Assembly: GCA_900197615.1 (NCBI GenBank)
Contig: FZLR01000016.1
Coordinates: 1 to 43,752, forward strand
Reading direction: 5' to 3'
From: Rhodospirillaceae bacterium Spongia-Bin9
GTDB lineage: Bacteria > Pseudomonadota > Alphaproteobacteria > Bin65
Length of the DNA stretch: 43,752 nucleotides
The notes below the pieces were generated by a model. That model saw only the letters and a program-made list of their open reading frames with translations. It did no database searches and was not told where the DNA came from. Shown here in pieces: positions 1,746-9,559 of this stretch. The position numbers and the translations under genes were made by a program. Position 1 is the stretch's first letter. Each line of letters begins with the position of its first letter.

Positions 1746-2936
1746 TCAGAACCCTCTTGAAATTCCGAATACAGCGCCGTGGTTGTCATAGGTATTGATC
1801 GAAATATTGGAACGGTTCCACTCGAACGAATAACCGGCATATGGCGCGAAGCCGCGATATTGCAGAGCCCGGTGAAGCAGGTTGACAGAAACTCGCGCGA
1901 GCCGGTCTGACCGCGTCTTCTGAAACAGCGGATCGACACCGTTGAAGCGTCGCAGGCTGTAGGAAAGACGGGGAGATATCGAGAGTCCGCCTTCGAAGGC
2001 ATGCGACAGGGCAAGAGCAAGGCCGGCAAGGCGGCTGCCGTGACGCTTTTCGCGCGCGCAGTTCCGTTCCAGGTCGATCTCCATCCGGAGTCTCGTTCGC
2101 GCGCTGAACCCATAATCCAGACCGGAGCGCAGGCTGAATACCCAGCCGTCCATGCCCGGCAGATCCGCATGCTTTCGGCGCTCGGCGCCGAGAACGAGAT
2201 CGGCCCGAATTGCCGGAGAAAGACGCATGTGGCCGCGCGCCCAGGGGCCGATCCCGGTGCTGTAGCCCTCGCCGCCGAGCCATCGCTGGGTCAACCGGAT
2301 TCCGCCGGCGGCTTCACCCTGGTCGAACAGCCGCGCAATGCCGAGATCACCCTGGATCGAAATATCGTTCCAATCGCGGTTGCGATAGATTTTCCCGGCT
2401 GCGGAAAGCGCCAGAACGCCTCTCAAATCTTCGCCGATCACCGGCGCGTATTGGCCACCTGCATTGACGAACAGGCCGATACCCGAAGCAGCCCGCGCAT
2501 CGTCGTTTAGGCGGAACGGGACGCCGCCGATGCGAATCTCCCGGGCGTCAGTGCGCTTGACCGGGTTGCTCTCGGGCAGCAGGGACATCGAGAAGGCGGC
2601 CGACCATCTCTTCCGCGCATCGATGCTGTTCAGGTAGGCGTCGACCGCATCCTCGACCGAGGACGGCAGGCGGTCGGCGAGCGAGGCCCTGAAGTGAAAT
2701 GTCGCTTTCTCGTCGCGCCCGAGCGCGTGATAGACCCTGGCCAGCTCAAGCCGGACGCGGGTCAGGTCCGGGCGGCGGGCCAGTATGGTCTCGAACCGTT
2801 GCGCCGCCGACCGGAGCGAGCCCAGACGGAATTCGGCCCACCCCCGCCCCGCCCACCTCCAGCCAGCCGTTTCCGCATAATCCGGCGCGTTTCGACGGTA
2901 TGGTTTCGTTGCTGTTCCCGTGGGCGCAGGGGAGCG
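1746..2936 (-). pseudogene. Slam (surface lipoprotein assembly modifier), 5'-truncated
   Basis: Slam proteins are outer-membrane translocators: an N-terminal periplasmic TPR domain and a C-terminal 14-strand barrel (DUF560) that export lipoproteins to the cell surface. Seen: the TPR part in frame upstream of the first ATG (RFETILARRPDLTRVRLELA, then FHFRASLADRLP and AYLNSIDARKRW), then the barrel, ending FAPYAGYSFEWNRSN and the terminal GISRGF, a normal outer-membrane end. The frame is open back to a stop at 2982-2984 but has no ATG, GTG or TTG before 2588, and no signal peptide fits. A protein from ATG 2588 (280 aa) would lack the TPR and signal. I infer a 5' deletion or frameshift. It lies directly behind its likely substrate gene (2939-4717). 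Confidence 0.75.
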
Positions 2937-2938
2937 CG

Positions 2939-4717
2939 TTATTGGTCCTTCTTGCCTCCGAAATAGCCGGAGATGACACGGTTACCCGTTGTATCCTGGG
3001 CGTCGAAGACTCCGCCCATTTCTTCTGCGGCCGGGCCGTAGAACGAACCTCTGACTCCTCCGTTCTGGAAACCTGCCAAGTCGCCAGTACCGGTCAGATC
3101 GCTCGCCCTCAGCCCGTTGCCGCTGATTTGGGCGTTGAAGGTCGCGCCGCCGATTGCTGCCGTCCATTGCCCTCTAGAGCCTGGCTGCTTTCTGCGAACG
3201 CTCAAGGTGCCTGTAACGCTGGACGCCGCAAAATCGGCAGTCATATCAGCACTTCCGCTGTACCTGACAACTGCCGGATTGGAGGTGAACAGGGCCTGAT
3301 CGCTCGGGAACTCTCTGGCACCCATTTCTCCCGAATATGTTGCAGTCCCGCTCGTCGGCACGGCATCTTCGGGAGTTCGATTGCCATGCACCAGATAGAC
3401 GTAGTCGGCGATTGTTGGATTGTTCAGTCTGGGTTCACTCGTGCCCCATCCCTTGACATCGAAATGGTCGAACCTTGATGTCGGTCCAAAGCCTCCAGTC
3501 CAGGTCCAGAACACCCGTACACCGTTGGCGTCTGTGATAGAGTATTGATCCGGAAATCTGGCATCGGATCGAAAAGCGGTGTCGGCTACTGTGAATGTCC
3601 GTCCTCCTACAGTCACATTCCATCCGTTTGCGGTCCGCTCGACTGTCGCCATGCCGTCGTCGGCGAACACCACCGAATCCCGCTGATCAAATCGGCGCTT
3701 TGTGCCCGCAACGTTAGCTGCAGAACCCAACGAGGGTGGCGCGAACTCAGTTGCTCCAATAAAGCCGTAAAGGTTGAGATCGTTATCGGTATTTGCGAGG
3801 TCACGAGTAGCGGTGACTGTACCACCGATCTCCTCTGCATTCGGCCCGTAGAACCTGGCAACGATTTGGCCCATGAAGCCGCGCACGCTTTCCGCGTCCG
3901 GTACCGCCGAATCGCTGTCCGTCCCGGTCAGGGTTGCGGTATACTGTCCGTTGCTGAATCGTCCGTTGGTAATGGTGAAGCTGCTCGTCGGCCAACTGAC
4001 CCTGGTATTGGAGCCTGGCGCAGAACCGCGGACGTAGAAGATATTGCCTGTCAACTGGCCTATGTCAAAATTGGCCACAAGTCGAATATTGCCGGAATAC
4101 CTCTGCCTCGAATTAGTAGAGGTGGAATCGGCCCTGTAGGCATCGGCTCGAAATCGCCCGCTGTATTTTGCTTCGCCCGAGGCCGGAATGGCGGATGCTG
4201 CCGTACCCAACCCAAAGACGAAATACGTTCGCGTTCCACCGACATCCAAATGGGGCGCGGCCATATAGGTGAATTCGCTTGGCTCGCCAAGCGATTCGCC
4301 GTTTCGGGTCCCGGTAGCGCTGAAAAACCCGTAAGTTTGCCCGGTACCCGCGTCGGTATAACTGCAGTATCCATCCACACAGTGCTCAGGCAAAAACGTA
4401 GCGGTTTCTTCTTCGTCGCCGTCCTGGAATGCGACGGTATACCCGCCCGCAGAAGTTCTCTGGATGGATGTTACACGAAAGGTATCTGAAATCGATGTTG
4501 TTCTGGATTCTCTGGCCAGAGATGCATTGGACAGTGAAAATTCCTGGTCTTGCCCTGTAGCGAAGGCCTCAGTCAGTGTGGGTCCTTCATGCGTCGGCGC
4601 ACCTCCGGTGCCCGGCTGCATAGTCGCTGAGCCGCCGCCACCGCCGCAACCCGCCAACATCAGCAACGCAACGACCGGAAGTGCGGCCGAAGCCTTCAGA
4701 ATCCTGGGAATGGTCAT
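2939..4717 (-). CDS. TbpB-like surface lipoprotein with two beta-barrel domains, probable Slam substrate
   Basis: 592 aa. Signal peptide with lipobox LAGC (Cys24), followed by a Gly-rich anchor, as in transferrin-binding-protein-B-like lipoproteins. Two copies of the barrel-domain ending are visible: ARFYGPNAEEIGGTV near residues 285-300 and GSFYGPAAEEMGGVF near the C-terminus, which closes with GYFGGKKDQ. Proteins of this class are moved to the surface by Slam, whose gene follows directly. The ligand cannot be read from the sequence. The start ATG 4717 has a strong Shine-Dalgarno (AAGGAGGT, 4722-4729). About 200 bp upstream lies the inverted pair of lox-like sites, so its expression may depend on the orientation of that segment. 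Confidence 0.85.
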   Translation of the reverse strand: MTIPRILKASAALPVVALLMLAGCGGGGGSATMQPGTGGAPTHEGPTLTEAFATGQDQEFSLSNASLARESRTTSISDTFRVTSIQRTSAGGYTVAFQDGDEEETATFLPEHCVDGYCSYTDAGTGQTYGFFSATGTRNGESLGEPSEFTYMAAPHLDVGGTRTYFVFGLGTAASAIPASGEAKYSGRFRADAYRADSTSTNSRQRYSGNIRLVANFDIGQLTGNIFYVRGSAPGSNTRVSWPTSSFTITNGRFSNGQYTATLTGTDSDSAVPDAESVRGFMGQIVARFYGPNAEEIGGTVTATRDLANTDNDLNLYGFIGATEFAPPSLGSAANVAGTKRRFDQRDSVVFADDGMATVERTANGWNVTVGGRTFTVADTAFRSDARFPDQYSITDANGVRVFWTWTGGFGPTSRFDHFDVKGWGTSEPRLNNPTIADYVYLVHGNRTPEDAVPTSGTATYSGEMGAREFPSDQALFTSNPAVVRYSGSADMTADFAASSVTGTLSVRRKQPGSRGQWTAAIGGATFNAQISGNGLRASDLTGTGDLAGFQNGGVRGSFYGPAAEEMGGVFDAQDTTGNRVISGYFGGKKDQ

Positions 4718-4916
4718 CTCTACCTCCTTCGACGACGGTTAGACCGTAGGTGCTCCCGCTGAGAGAGTGAGCCGGCCGGGTATGGTTTGTGGAGGTCAAT
4801 CGAGAGGCAAAGCCGCGAACCAGCCGCAGGGCACCGTAACGCCCTGCGCCTGGCACGGGCGACTTTCAACTCCGCCTGACACCGTGTGGCCCATGTGGCC
4901 GTGCACATCCTCAGCA

Positions 4917-4950
4917 ATTGCGCGCGATAACTGTCATTATCGGGCGCAAT
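4917..4950 (+). other. Lox-like recombination site A (13-8-13)
   Basis: Left arm ATTGCGCGCGATA, spacer ACTGTCAT, right arm TATCGGGCGCAAT. The arms are inverted repeats with one mismatch in 13. The spacer is asymmetric. It can also be read as a dif-type 11-6-11 site, with ATAA and TTAT around a 6-bp core. It pairs with site B at 5272-5305, whose spacer is the exact reverse complement. It is inferred to be a substrate of the Cre-like recombinase at 5414-6397. Confidence 0.75.
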
Positions 4951-5184
4951 CCGGCGCCCCCTGTCGAGATGGCGCGGAGGCGAGCCGGCATATCCGGAAC
5001 CCCGGCTCGACCCCCGGGAATCGCCGGAAACGTGCGGCGGAGCGGCGGTCCCGGAGCCGTCCGGAGACGCCATGCAGGCCGCCCGCAGCTGTGTGTTTGC
5101 GGCGGCACCAGCGGGCCGCCTGTCGGAACCCGGCCTCAACGCCAGGCGGGGACAGTTACGGGCGGGACTTGCGCAGGCCTCGTC

Positions 5185-5223
5185 GCCGGCAGGTAAAGCA
5201 AGCCGTTTCAATTACCTGGCGGC
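5185..5223. repeat. Inverted repeat inside the invertible segment
   Basis: GCCGGCAGGTAA (5185-5196) and TTACCTGGCGGC (5212-5223) pair in 11 of 12 positions with a 15-nt spacer. There is no T-run on either side, so an operator is as likely as a terminator. Confidence 0.5.
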
Positions 5224-5263
5224 GGCGGGAAGGAAGCTGCCCGGAGCCCAGCCAACTAAGAGG

Positions 5264-5269
5264 TTGACA
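5264..5269 (+). promoter_or_regulatory. TTGACA -35-like hexamer at the edge of the invertible segment
   Basis: A perfect TTGACA reads rightward 2 bp before site B. There is no good -10 at 16-18 bp. GATAAT lies only 11 bp downstream, inside the left arm of site B, and would need an unusual spacing. It is a candidate promoter element only. Confidence 0.3.
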
Positions 5270-5271
5270 AG

Positions 5272-5305
5272 ATAGCGCCCGATAATGACAGTTATCGGGC
5301 GCAAT
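5272..5305 (-). other. Lox-like recombination site B (13-8-13), inverted relative to site A
   Basis: Left arm ATAGCGCCCGATA, spacer ATGACAGT, right arm TATCGGGCGCAAT. The right arm is identical to that of site A and the identity continues as CCGG. The spacer is the reverse complement of the site A spacer, so the pair predicts inversion and not excision. The 11 bp on each side of the central TGACAG form a perfect palindrome (GCGCCCGATAA / TTATCGGGCGC). Confidence 0.75.
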
Positions 5306-5380
5306 CCGGGGCCAACAATGGCTGCCCTATGCCGCCGGAATTCCGGCGCAACGGATTGGTTTCCATGACTTTATTCGGAC

Positions 5381-5413: not shown

Positions 5414-6397
5414 TCACTTCCGCCCCTGCTTGCGGGCGAGCTTGGCGGCCGCGCTGCGCTTCACCAGCAGCCGCTCGCCATAGCGGTTGACCATGGACGT
5501 CGACTTCCACCGCCCTGCCTGGAGGATCGCCGGCAGCTCGATCCCGGCGGCGATCATGTCCTGGGCGGCGCCGATCCGCGCGCTGTGCCCCGACAGGCCT
5601 CGCACCACCGACTCCGGCAGGCCGGCCCTGCGCGCCATCCGCTTGAAGATGCGCGCCACCTGGCCCGGCGGGAGGGCACCGAGGACCCTCCCGCCCTTGT
5701 CGAGGGAGCGGAACAGGAAGCCGTCCCCGATGCCGCCGCGCCGGCGCCAGCGGCGCACCAGCCGCAGGCTGTCCGGCCCGACCCAGACGATCTCGCCCTG
5801 TCCCTCGGCGTCGGTCTTGCTGCGGCGCACGAGGAGGGTGCCATGACCGCCGACCTCCTCGAGCAGGTCGGAGACTTTGAGCGAGGTCATCTCCGAGCGC
5901 CGGAGCATCGCATCGTAGGCGACGGCGAGCAGCGCCCGGTTGCGGTCGTCGATCAGCCGGTCGCCGGCGGCCTTCAGCAGGCGCTGGCGCAGGGGCCAGG
6001 TCAGCCCGTGCGCCTGGACCTGGCGGCGGCCTCTGCTCTGGTGCATGCGCTTGAGCGCGAGCTTCACCAGCGGGCTCGCCACCGTCCCGCCGGCGCCCAC
6101 GGCGCGGTGGGCGATTGCGATGCTGGCGAGGTAGCGGCGCACGGTGGCCGGCGCCCGGACGCCGGCCATGGCGTCGACGAAGGCGGCGACCGTTTCCGGA
6201 ATTGCCGGCAGCGCCCGCTTGCCCTCGCCGGCGCACCATGCCGCGTAGATGCCGAGATCCGACCGCACCGCCCGTCCGGTGTTGCCGCAGATCGCGCCGC
6301 CGGCGTCCCGGGCGATCTGCTCGATTTGGTCCCCCGGCGGCGGGCCGCCGTCACTCGCCGGCGCCCCTGTAGTGTCCAATGGCGATTCGAGATACAT
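5414..6397 (-). CDS. Cre-like tyrosine recombinase, probable invertase of the adjacent lox-like sites
   Basis: 327 aa. N-terminal helical core-binding domain (about 25-125), C-terminal catalytic domain (about 135-320). Visible catalytic set: R166 (AMLRRSEM), K194 (RRSKTD), H271 and R274 (SGHSARIGAAQD), W297 (QAGRWKS), Y306 (VNRYGE). The intervals R-K 28, H-R 3, R-W 23 and R-Y 32 equal those of P1 Cre (R173, K201, H289, R292, W315, Y324), and the GHSAR-GAA block is very Cre-like. There is no arm-binding domain, as expected for a simple two-site recombinase. Start ATG 6397 has GGGAGG upstream. Two loxP-shaped inverted sites lie 109-497 bp past its stop, so it probably flips the segment between them. 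Related enzymes also occur on alphaproteobacterial plasmids. Confidence 0.88.
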   Translation of the reverse strand: MYLESPLDTTGAPASDGGPPPGDQIEQIARDAGGAICGNTGRAVRSDLGIYAAWCAGEGKRALPAIPETVAAFVDAMAGVRAPATVRRYLASIAIAHRAVGAGGTVASPLVKLALKRMHQSRGRRQVQAHGLTWPLRQRLLKAAGDRLIDDRNRALLAVAYDAMLRRSEMTSLKVSDLLEEVGGHGTLLVRRSKTDAEGQGEIVWVGPDSLRLVRRWRRRGGIGDGFLFRSLDKGGRVLGALPPGQVARIFKRMARRAGLPESVVRGLSGHSARIGAAQDMIAAGIELPAILQAGRWKSTSMVNRYGERLLVKRSAAAKLARKQGRK

Positions 6398-6666: not shown

Positions 6667-7408
6667 TCAACTTGGGTCAAGCTGATCGAGTAGTCCCAGC
6701 CCCGCGCCGGCAGTACGCGATGAGTTCGCCGCGATAGTAGGCGTTGTCTGCGCGCAGCCACACCGGCGTGCCTTAGGGCAGGCACGGTGCCACGTCGCTG
6801 TCGAGTTGCTCGCGCCAGCCTCCAGCCACGTCGCCGCCACCCGGGTGCAGCCGGCCGCTCGCCCACAGCGAGCCGATGAACACCCCGTGCAGCCAGTACT
6901 GGCGCGTGCCGTCGTAGCCGCGCCGCGCCTCCTCGAACAACTTCCCGTCGACCTCGATCGCGGCACCGTCGATGAACACCGGAACGTAGCCGCGCACCAC
7001 CGCTTTGTGTTCCACCACCGCCGGAGCCACCTGTGCGGCCAGCGAGCGCGCTACCTCCAGCAAGGTCGCGACCTGCGCCTCGTCGATCCGTGCCAGATAC
7101 TCGCCAAGACGCCGGCCCGAGAGCACGTGGCCAAGACCCGGAAGCCGTTGGCCGACCCGGTCCTCGCGCAGCGCGTCCAGATCCGACAGCGCGCCGTTGC
7201 CCGCCGCCAGCGAGGCGATCGGGCTCCACAGCGTCTCCGCGTCGCTCGCGCCCCGCGCCCGCAGCTTGACCGACAGGGCCGACAGCGCCCGCGGCAAGTT
7301 CAGGCGCTCCGCCATCCGGCCCAGAACCGACCAGCCCCCGAAGCCGGTGAGCTGCGCGTCGGTGAAGTCCATCTCGACTTTGGGCGGCCGGGGAATTACC
7401 GTGTTCAT
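6667..7408 (-). pseudogene. IS1380-family transposase remnant
   Basis: From ATG 7408 the frame gives an IS1380-type N-terminus (FTDAQLTGFGGWSVLGRMAE, then DLDALREDRVG and FIDGAAIEVDGKLFEEARRG). The frame stops at 6773 after about 210 aa. Beyond the stop the same frame continues as GTPVWLRADNAYYRGEL, a conserved IS1380 block. A frame change then gives GWDYSISLTQ, where the similarity ends. The family is usually well over 400 aa, so about 40 percent is missing. In-frame stop, frameshift and truncation together mean it is inactive. Confidence 0.8.
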
Positions 7409-7611
7409 CGCGCACCTGCGAGGTGATCTCATGTCCAACGGCAATATTGCCGATTTCGCCCGCAGCGTACGCACTTTTTCGGACCCGGTAACCGCCTTAT
7501 CCGGGAATCAGGGGAAGGAGAATTGCACGTCGAGTGGTTTCGAGTCACACTCAATGGGCTGGGAGGGTTCCATATGGGGAATCCCGGCTAAATTGTCGGT
7601 GAGGGAATCTG

Positions 7612-8326: not shown

Positions 8327-9559
8327 TCAGCCTTGCGCCAGCGCGTCGATCCTGTCCGCCACCCGCTGCGCCGGCTCGCGCAGCTGCCCGACCGTCCAGT
8401 CGGCAGCGTAGCCCTCGGTCACGTCGCCGGGACGGGCGTGGTTGACCAGCCGCTTGGTCAGGGACCGCGGCAGCGTCAGCTCGCGTTCGGCCACGGTGAT
8501 GAAGGCGTTGCGCAGGCCGTGGAACCAGAATTTCGCGCCGCCGGCCTCCGTAATGTGGTCGTAGTGCTGGTGCAGCTCCTCGACATGACCAGAGAGGCTC
8601 GTCGGCGACGGGAACACCCACGCGCGCAGGTTCTCCGGCAGGACCTCGCCGTCCACCCGGCGCCGGGCGAGGATGTCCCCGAGCTGGCGGGTTACGGGAA
8701 GCTCCAGCGGCACGCCGGTCTTGGTCTCCTCGACCCGGAACAGGCCGGCCTCCAGGTCGACCCGGTCCCAGGCCAGCGCCATGATCTCGCCCCGGCGCAT
8801 GCCGGTGTAGAGCCCGAACAGCAGCAGGTCCCGGTGCACCGGGTTGGCCACGGCGGCCTTGATGCCCTTGCGCCAGCGCGGCAAGACCTCGGCCGGCGCC
8901 GAGATCCGCCGCCGGGTCTTGCGGTGATAGCGCCCGCCTGCGGCCAGCCACTGCTCGACCGGATTGCGCAGCTCCTCGTGATCGACGCAGGGCCGGCGGT
9001 AGACCGAGCGCAGGAAGGACAGGCACTGGTTGGCCGGCATCCTGCCGTGGCGCTCGGTGATCGTATGGAACCGGGCCTCGACGTCCCGGCGGCCGATCGC
9101 GTCGAGCGGACGCTTCAGCCAGTCGCCCAGATAGAGGTCCCTGTAGCGGCGGTAGCAGCGCTGGGTCGCCGCCGACCGCCCGTTCCCGGCCTCGATATAC
9201 TCATTGCAGGCGTCGCCCAGGGTCGGCAGGGCGCGCGCGCCAGCGCGCTCCCCGGCGGGATCGTCGCCCCCCGCGACTCGCCCGAGCAGTTCCTGGGCCA
9301 GGCGCCGGGCCCGGTCCGGCGTGACCCGGCCGTAGCGGCCGACCACGACGCGCTTGTTGGGTGCCTTGCGCCCGCCGTCTCCGGCCCGGTAGTTGACGAT
9401 GAAGGACTTGGTGCCCGAGGGCTGGACCCGGCAGCCGAAACCGGTCAGTTTGTCGTCCCAGGCGATCCAGGGCCTGTCTTCCGGCTCCAGGGCGTCGACG
9501 GTGCGCTTGGTGAGCGTCAGCTTCACCCTGGCGGTGCGTTTTGCGGTCGTTTGCTCCAT
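8327..9559 (-). CDS. Phage-type tyrosine integrase with N-terminal arm-binding domain
   Basis: 410 aa. Residues 12-95 form the DUF4102-like arm-binding domain (TKRTVDALEPEDRPWIAWDD, GFGCRV, SFIVNYR). The core-binding part spans about 110-210. Catalytic residues: R255 (TGMRRGEI), K280, H347 and R350 (FHGLRNAF), H374 and Y384 (TEGYAADW). It is full length and looks functional. It resembles integrases of prophages and genomic islands and is unlike the Cre-like enzyme at 5414. No cargo clearly belongs to it; the dam fragment and IS debris downstream may be remains of its island. No tRNA or att pair was found nearby. Confidence 0.85.
   Translation of the reverse strand: MEQTTAKRTARVKLTLTKRTVDALEPEDRPWIAWDDKLTGFGCRVQPSGTKSFIVNYRAGDGGRKAPNKRVVVGRYGRVTPDRARRLAQELLGRVAGGDDPAGERAGARALPTLGDACNEYIEAGNGRSAATQRCYRRYRDLYLGDWLKRPLDAIGRRDVEARFHTITERHGRMPANQCLSFLRSVYRRPCVDHEELRNPVEQWLAAGGRYHRKTRRRISAPAEVLPRWRKGIKAAVANPVHRDLLLFGLYTGMRRGEIMALAWDRVDLEAGLFRVEETKTGVPLELPVTRQLGDILARRRVDGEVLPENLRAWVFPSPTSLSGHVEELHQHYDHITEAGGAKFWFHGLRNAFITVAERELTLPRSLTKRLVNHARPGDVTEGYAADWTVGQLREPAQRVADRIDALAQG

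Follow-up and report, generated by a model that had tools for sequence, protein, structure and literature searches.

Cre/lox is among the most used of all genetic tools, and the natural systems of Cre type have a role in multimer resolution. These natural systems are known from phages and plasmids, and the sites nox and pox were found by a search for this same site architecture (PMC4957104). The locus described here is like Cre/loxP of phage P1, Dre/rox, Vika/vox, Nigri/nox and Panto/pox in the homology of its recombinase, in its 34-bp site of 13-8-13 architecture and in the position of that site beside the recombinase gene, but differs from them in its inverted pair of sites, which flank a piece of chromosome ahead of a surface gene.

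The described invertible switches closest to this locus use other enzymes or act in other ways. The recombinases of ipuS and fimS are of the FimB/IpuA type and not of the Cre type, the IVp promoters belong to Bacteroidota and have a different recombinase family and different repeats, and control of CwpV acts after transcription start. At ipuS, which serves the autotransporter UpaE of uropathogenic E. coli, a tyrosine recombinase encoded by the adjacent gene inverts a promoter element of 260 bp with a mapped start site inside it (PMC6083910). Both ipuS and fimS resemble the switch proposed for our locus in being short inverted elements that carry the promoter of a surface protein, but their repeats measure only 7-16 bp and lack the palindromic 13-8-13 lox architecture. 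In Bacteroides fragilis, a single tyrosine recombinase, BF2766/Tsr19, flips two promoters that stand upstream of surface genes, one nearby and one distant, and wild-type cells have IVp-I mostly in its OFF form (PMC4747536), a precedent for the predicted prevalence of OFF described below; no lox-type sites have been described for the IVp promoters. CwpV of Clostridioides difficile is a large, phase-variable surface protein whose invertible switch has a tyrosine recombinase (PMC2784873) and is not of Cre/lox type. A genome-wide survey of inversions reported none in the four alphaproteobacteria that it sampled (PMC5903667), and our search of the literature on Cre-like phase variation, mainly in open-access papers, found none that joins Cre/lox to a surface switch.

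Here we analyse a 43,752-nucleotide stretch of DNA from Rhodospirillaceae bacterium Spongia-Bin9 (hereafter the window), which we infer, with a probability of roughly 0.7, to contain a DNA-inversion (phase-variation) switch run by a recombinase of the Cre family. In function such a switch resembles fimS, ipuS and the IVp promoters of Bacteroides, while its enzyme and site are those of Cre/lox. If this is correct, a chromosomal family of inverted Cre/lox pairs shows how a plasmid maintenance system can become a phase-variation switch, adds naturally orthogonal sets of recombinase and site, and helps to explain surface variation in these uncultured bacteria.

A pair of inverted lox-type sites

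The end of the segment towards the lipoprotein gene is formed by site A (4917-4950, plus strand; ATTGCGCGCGATA-ACTGTCAT-TATCGGGCGCAAT, with spacer ACTGTCAT at 4930-4937), and the far end by site B (5272-5305, plus strand; ATAGCGCCCGATA-ATGACAGT-TATCGGGCGCAAT, with spacer ATGACAGT at 5285-5292), which is inverted relative to A. An earlier sequence-only reading had proposed this 13-8-13 pair, and its positions, the one arm mismatch in each site, the identical right arms and the exact reverse complementarity of the spacers all hold; its estimate of about 350 bp for the segment is corrected to 321 bp between the sites (4951-5271, the presumed invertible segment) and 389 bp with the sites included. 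Measured as 35-nt arms with 319 nt between them, the repeats are 94% complementary. When no more than one mismatch is allowed, just three 13-8-13 palindromes exist in the whole window, and this is the sole pair among them with inverted identical spacers. In 40 first-order shuffles of the window the sites averaged 0.175 and no pair arose; the window pair is thus not a product of chance. The core pattern has five matches against 0.17 expected. Across the 4.06-Mb assembly (316 contigs) the pair is unique, and a search of the same assembly for a junction in the opposite orientation returned none. The third palindrome (4820-4853, one mismatch) is unrelated in sequence, lies between site A and the lipoprotein gene, and would fold into a hairpin within the 5' untranslated region.

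The presumed target of the switch is a gene for a TbpB-like, Slam-dependent surface lipoprotein (2939-4717, minus strand; 592 aa, lipobox LAGC), downstream of which lies a gene for Slam, the surface lipoprotein assembly modifier with its SlipAM barrel (1746-2588, minus strand). The assignment as Slam-dependent, first made from the letters and open reading frames, is borne out by a score that exceeds the NCBIfam cut-off for Slam-dependent surface lipoproteins and by the adjoining SlipAM gene, and the product also matches TbpB chains. No orthologue of the lipoprotein was found in 10 genomes of the family, so the window locus affords no comparison with an empty site or an opposite orientation.

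A recombinase of the Cre family

The gene that presumably encodes the invertase for these sites (5414-6397, minus strand; 327 aa) had been described as adjoining them; it begins 108 bp past the right site and hence is not part of the segment. Its full-length product matches Cre structures with an E value of about 1e-25 and 94 bits, against 23 bits for the best non-Cre chain (XerC-like); Xer models match it weakly and far below their cut-offs, and its phage matches are mostly Dre and Cre. The catalytic R, K, H-x-x-R, W and Y are intact, in motifs LRR, SKT, GHSAR, GRW and NRY that align with those of Cre. The protein, which the sequence-only reading had called Cre-like, is by homology a true Cre homologue. 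Beside its own start codon we looked for a lox-type site and found none. Close relatives of the recombinase at E 1e-85 were absent from 397 other Pseudomonadota genomes, which marks the family as rare. A phage origin was considered and is unsupported, as the viral contigs searched contained neither a relative of the recombinase nor a copy of the B-site pattern. The surrounding part of the window is rich in mobile genes, including a remnant of a DDE transposase upstream of the recombinase (6773-7474) and, separately, an integrase that has an Arm-DNA-binding domain (8327-9559).

Related site pairs in other genomes

We scanned relatives of the window recombinase for sites, using open-frame calls for the genes of related loci, and obtained 11 complete pairs in seven genomes, the window's own included, every one of them with two inverted sites; all these genomes are assembled sequences, among them several MAGs in short contigs, and some loci are related by descent, so that these counts are not fully independent. 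The pairs are that of the window, two in the sister genome G006 (C55 and C11), one on another contig of the window's own genome (L027), and those of loci L012, L013, L014, L015, L051, L072 and L073. The 13-8-13 site, which the sequence-only reading had suggested seeking in related genomes, recurs at 11 loci in inverted pairs with matching spacers. Some of the source MAGs carry isolate names that point to sponge samples, a hint that comes from the names only.

Eight of the 11 pairs enclose the recombinase gene, while the window and the two G006 pairs have short segments (368-389 bp) and a recombinase elsewhere. The window segment is homologous to both short G006 segments and aligns with them over its full length (66% identity to C11). 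Its first 64 bases after site A (4951-5014, plus strand) match the leaders and 5' ends of recombinase genes, 43 of the 64 agreeing with locus L011, a match that no other window stretch of like composition equals; this indicates that the window segment derives from a recombinase-carrying element and that a decayed leader and 5' end remain in it. The short segments are derivatives that have lost the recombinase and are presumably served by one encoded outside them.

A conserved single-arm half-site, (T/C)TATCGNGNGTAAAA, occurs between the recombinase gene and site B in L012, L013, L014, L051 and L072 (also in L015 and L027), at a nearly constant distance of about 212 bp from the end of site B, and is absent from the short segments; it is possibly an additional binding site for the recombinase or a regulator. 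Elsewhere in G006, contig C67 carries near position 188234 (L042) a 97% identical copy of the flank of the C11 switch, in which a deletion fuses the segment to the 3' part of the adhesin gene.

Covariation of the spacers

The spacers vary from locus to locus (ATGACAGT, GTGACAGT, ACAACAGT, AATACCGT, ACTACAGT, GCGACAGT and others) and differ even between copies within one genome, yet within a locus the A and B spacers, read in inverted orientation, match at 6-8 of 8 positions, an agreement that strand exchange of Cre type demands. In total 81 of 88 positions match, against 61.4 in shuffled pairings, which never reached 81 (permutation P at most about 2e-5, and 2e-5 with near-duplicates removed). 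Sites that varied independently in relatives, or that lacked inverted spacers, had been named beforehand as evidence against a switch, and the opposite was found, with inverted sites at all 11 pairs. Of the 8-bp spacer, the part that Cre exchanges is an overlap of 6 bp. Ten of the 11 pairs agree throughout the central 6 bp, the exception being L027 with two central mismatches, and of the seven mismatches in all, five are at the outermost spacer base; mismatches lying mostly outside the overlap are the pattern expected if recombination of Cre type maintains the pairs.

Surface genes beside site A

In nine of the 11 pairs the A-side neighbour is a surface-protein gene, for either a giant repeat adhesin or a lipoprotein beside a Slam gene. 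The giant secreted proteins (at L040/C11, L027, L012, L013, L014, L072 and L028/C55) have Calx-beta, fn3, cadherin, SWM or Ig-like repeats. The arrangement of lipoprotein and Slam is shared by the window and one other MAG, where the A-side gene of L073 encodes a protein of 396 aa that has a lipobox (LSGC), and a SlipAM gene comes next. BLASTP and Pfam gave no clear relation between this protein and the window lipoprotein, so we dropped the label TbpB-like for it and term it a lipoprotein beside a Slam gene; a single-sequence AlphaFold model of it (pLDDT 31) gave no usable structure. At L015 and L051 no surface gene was evident on the A side.

Some further arrangements were seen at these and related loci. 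At L017 an A site lies beside the gene of such a surface protein and the B site is absent. In the same MAG, at a contig start, a B-type site with TTGACC (L018, 358-391) faces a 918-aa LuxR-type regulator and could be ON-oriented or differently used. About 800 bp beyond site B of L051 and L072, and reading away from it, lie related genes for outer-membrane beta-barrels (L051, 3746-4678; L072, 6455-7312) with weak matches to OMP_b-brl, so that the far side of a switch may also have a target.

Promoter-like elements and orientation

A TTGAC box stands just inside site B in all 11 pairs and never at site A. In the window it is part of a -35-like TTGACA (5264-5269, plus strand) that points, as assembled, away from the lipoprotein gene. 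The pattern TTGAC-N11-CGATA-N8-TATCG occurs in five of the 385 genomes of alphaproteobacteria searched, and its reversed control in none; the recombinase is present in three of the five. With one mismatch allowed, the pattern occurs in eight of 10 genomes that were tested on account of their recombinase or sites, and the control again in none. At most loci a hexamer such as nACAGT follows TTGAC at 17 nt, within the spacer. Its counterpart in the window, GACAGT (5287-5292, plus strand, in the spacer of site B and 17 nt after TTGACA), is a tentative, weak -10-like element, which is also present in site A in the outward direction. The -10 match is weak (three or four of six positions), and a strict sigma-70 scan found no promoter. 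The spacer's final base belongs to the outer flank and is thus not exchanged; it is T at all 11 A sites and at six of the 11 B sites (Fisher P 0.035), and the hexamer would be improved on the A side after inversion in five loci. This bias fits a promoter that is completed on the A side.

Taken together, these elements suggest how the switch might work. The recombinase of 5414-6397 would bind the two inverted sites, exchange strands within the spacers and flip the 321-bp segment. As assembled, with TTGACA inside site B directed away from the lipoprotein gene, the switch would be OFF; after inversion TTGACA would stand just inside site A, directed into the lipoprotein and Slam genes, and the switch would be ON. 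Inversion would in this way assemble a promoter before the surface gene, a step kept tentative by the weak -10. We infer that TTGACA belongs to a promoter and that nine pairs were assembled in the OFF state. All nine pairs beside surface genes have the predicted OFF orientation and none the ON. The bias may mean that the switch is mostly OFF, that it is locked, or that OFF and ON have been assigned the wrong way round.

Sequence similarity runs about 130 bp past site B in several loci. Exactly 44 bp outside B, six loci have an IHF-like YAANNNNTTG with an A/T tract about 11 bp further; in the window the putative motif is at 5349-5358 (minus strand), again with the tract 11 bp beyond it. A part for IHF at this position, and with it a departure from the accessory-free recombination of Cre-type systems, is a guess from the motif.

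Alternative explanations

It is conceivable, though improbable, that the site pairs are the ends of an IS-like mobile element with a Cre-like recombinase, that its proximity to surface genes reflects an insertion preference and that the window holds a derivative without recombinase. The presence of the recombinase between the sites in most elements, the several copies per genome and the resemblance of the short window and G006 segments to internal deletion derivatives would all suit such an element. However, the similarity past B takes in the fixed +44 motif, so that the sites are not the ends of a conserved unit, and the spacers differ between copies in one genome, the same end faces surface genes in nine of 11 pairs, no target duplication was seen, and Cre-type recombination at inverted sites leads to inversion and not to excision. 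We consider it somewhat less probable still that the switch is now locked or dead, its sites having once served inversion or plasmid resolution before the state became fixed. The single orientation of all assembled pairs beside surface genes, an assembly without the second orientation, and the decay of a window segment that stands apart from a recombinase element speak for a fixed state; but spacer covariation and intact arms have been kept across divergent loci, the recombinase is complete and retains its catalytic residues, and a minority orientation would be hidden by consensus assembly.

Least probable is that the sites act as transcribed hairpins (attenuators or terminators) or as operator palindromes, the recombinase being incidental. 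Each site can fold into a stem of about 11-13 bp, and site B was scored as terminator-like on the minus strand, but hairpins and operators need no asymmetric 8-bp centre matched in two distant inverted copies, and the sites track the Cre-like gene down to its plasmid relatives with a fixed spacing of 38 bp. The phase-variation switch first proposed for the window is instead supported by the recurrence of inverted pairs, nine of 11 of them facing surface genes, and the finding has widened from a single locus to a small, apparently undescribed family of inversion switches with Cre-family recombinases.

A possible origin from plasmid-type systems

In Methylobacterium-type plasmid relatives of the recombinase (about 48% identity), a single site ends 38 bp before the recombinase start, and site A of L011, L012 and L013 has the same 38-bp geometry. 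Since these relatives carry a single site, the second, inverted one seems to have been added later, and in the simplest history a plasmid-type, single-site Cre/lox system would have gained an inverted second site with a TTGAC box. We suggest, tentatively and with the odds somewhat against it, that the result is a new class of switch, a plasmid-type system for Cre/lox resolution having become a family of chromosomal surface-protein switches with a split promoter and insulating spacers. The -35 box would lie on the invertible segment and the -10 box would end in the fixed, gene-side base of the lox spacer, so that recombination itself would build the promoter, while different spacers would insulate several switches under one recombinase. 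The recombinases of the chromosomal loci group in a single clade (14 rows, support 100/99).
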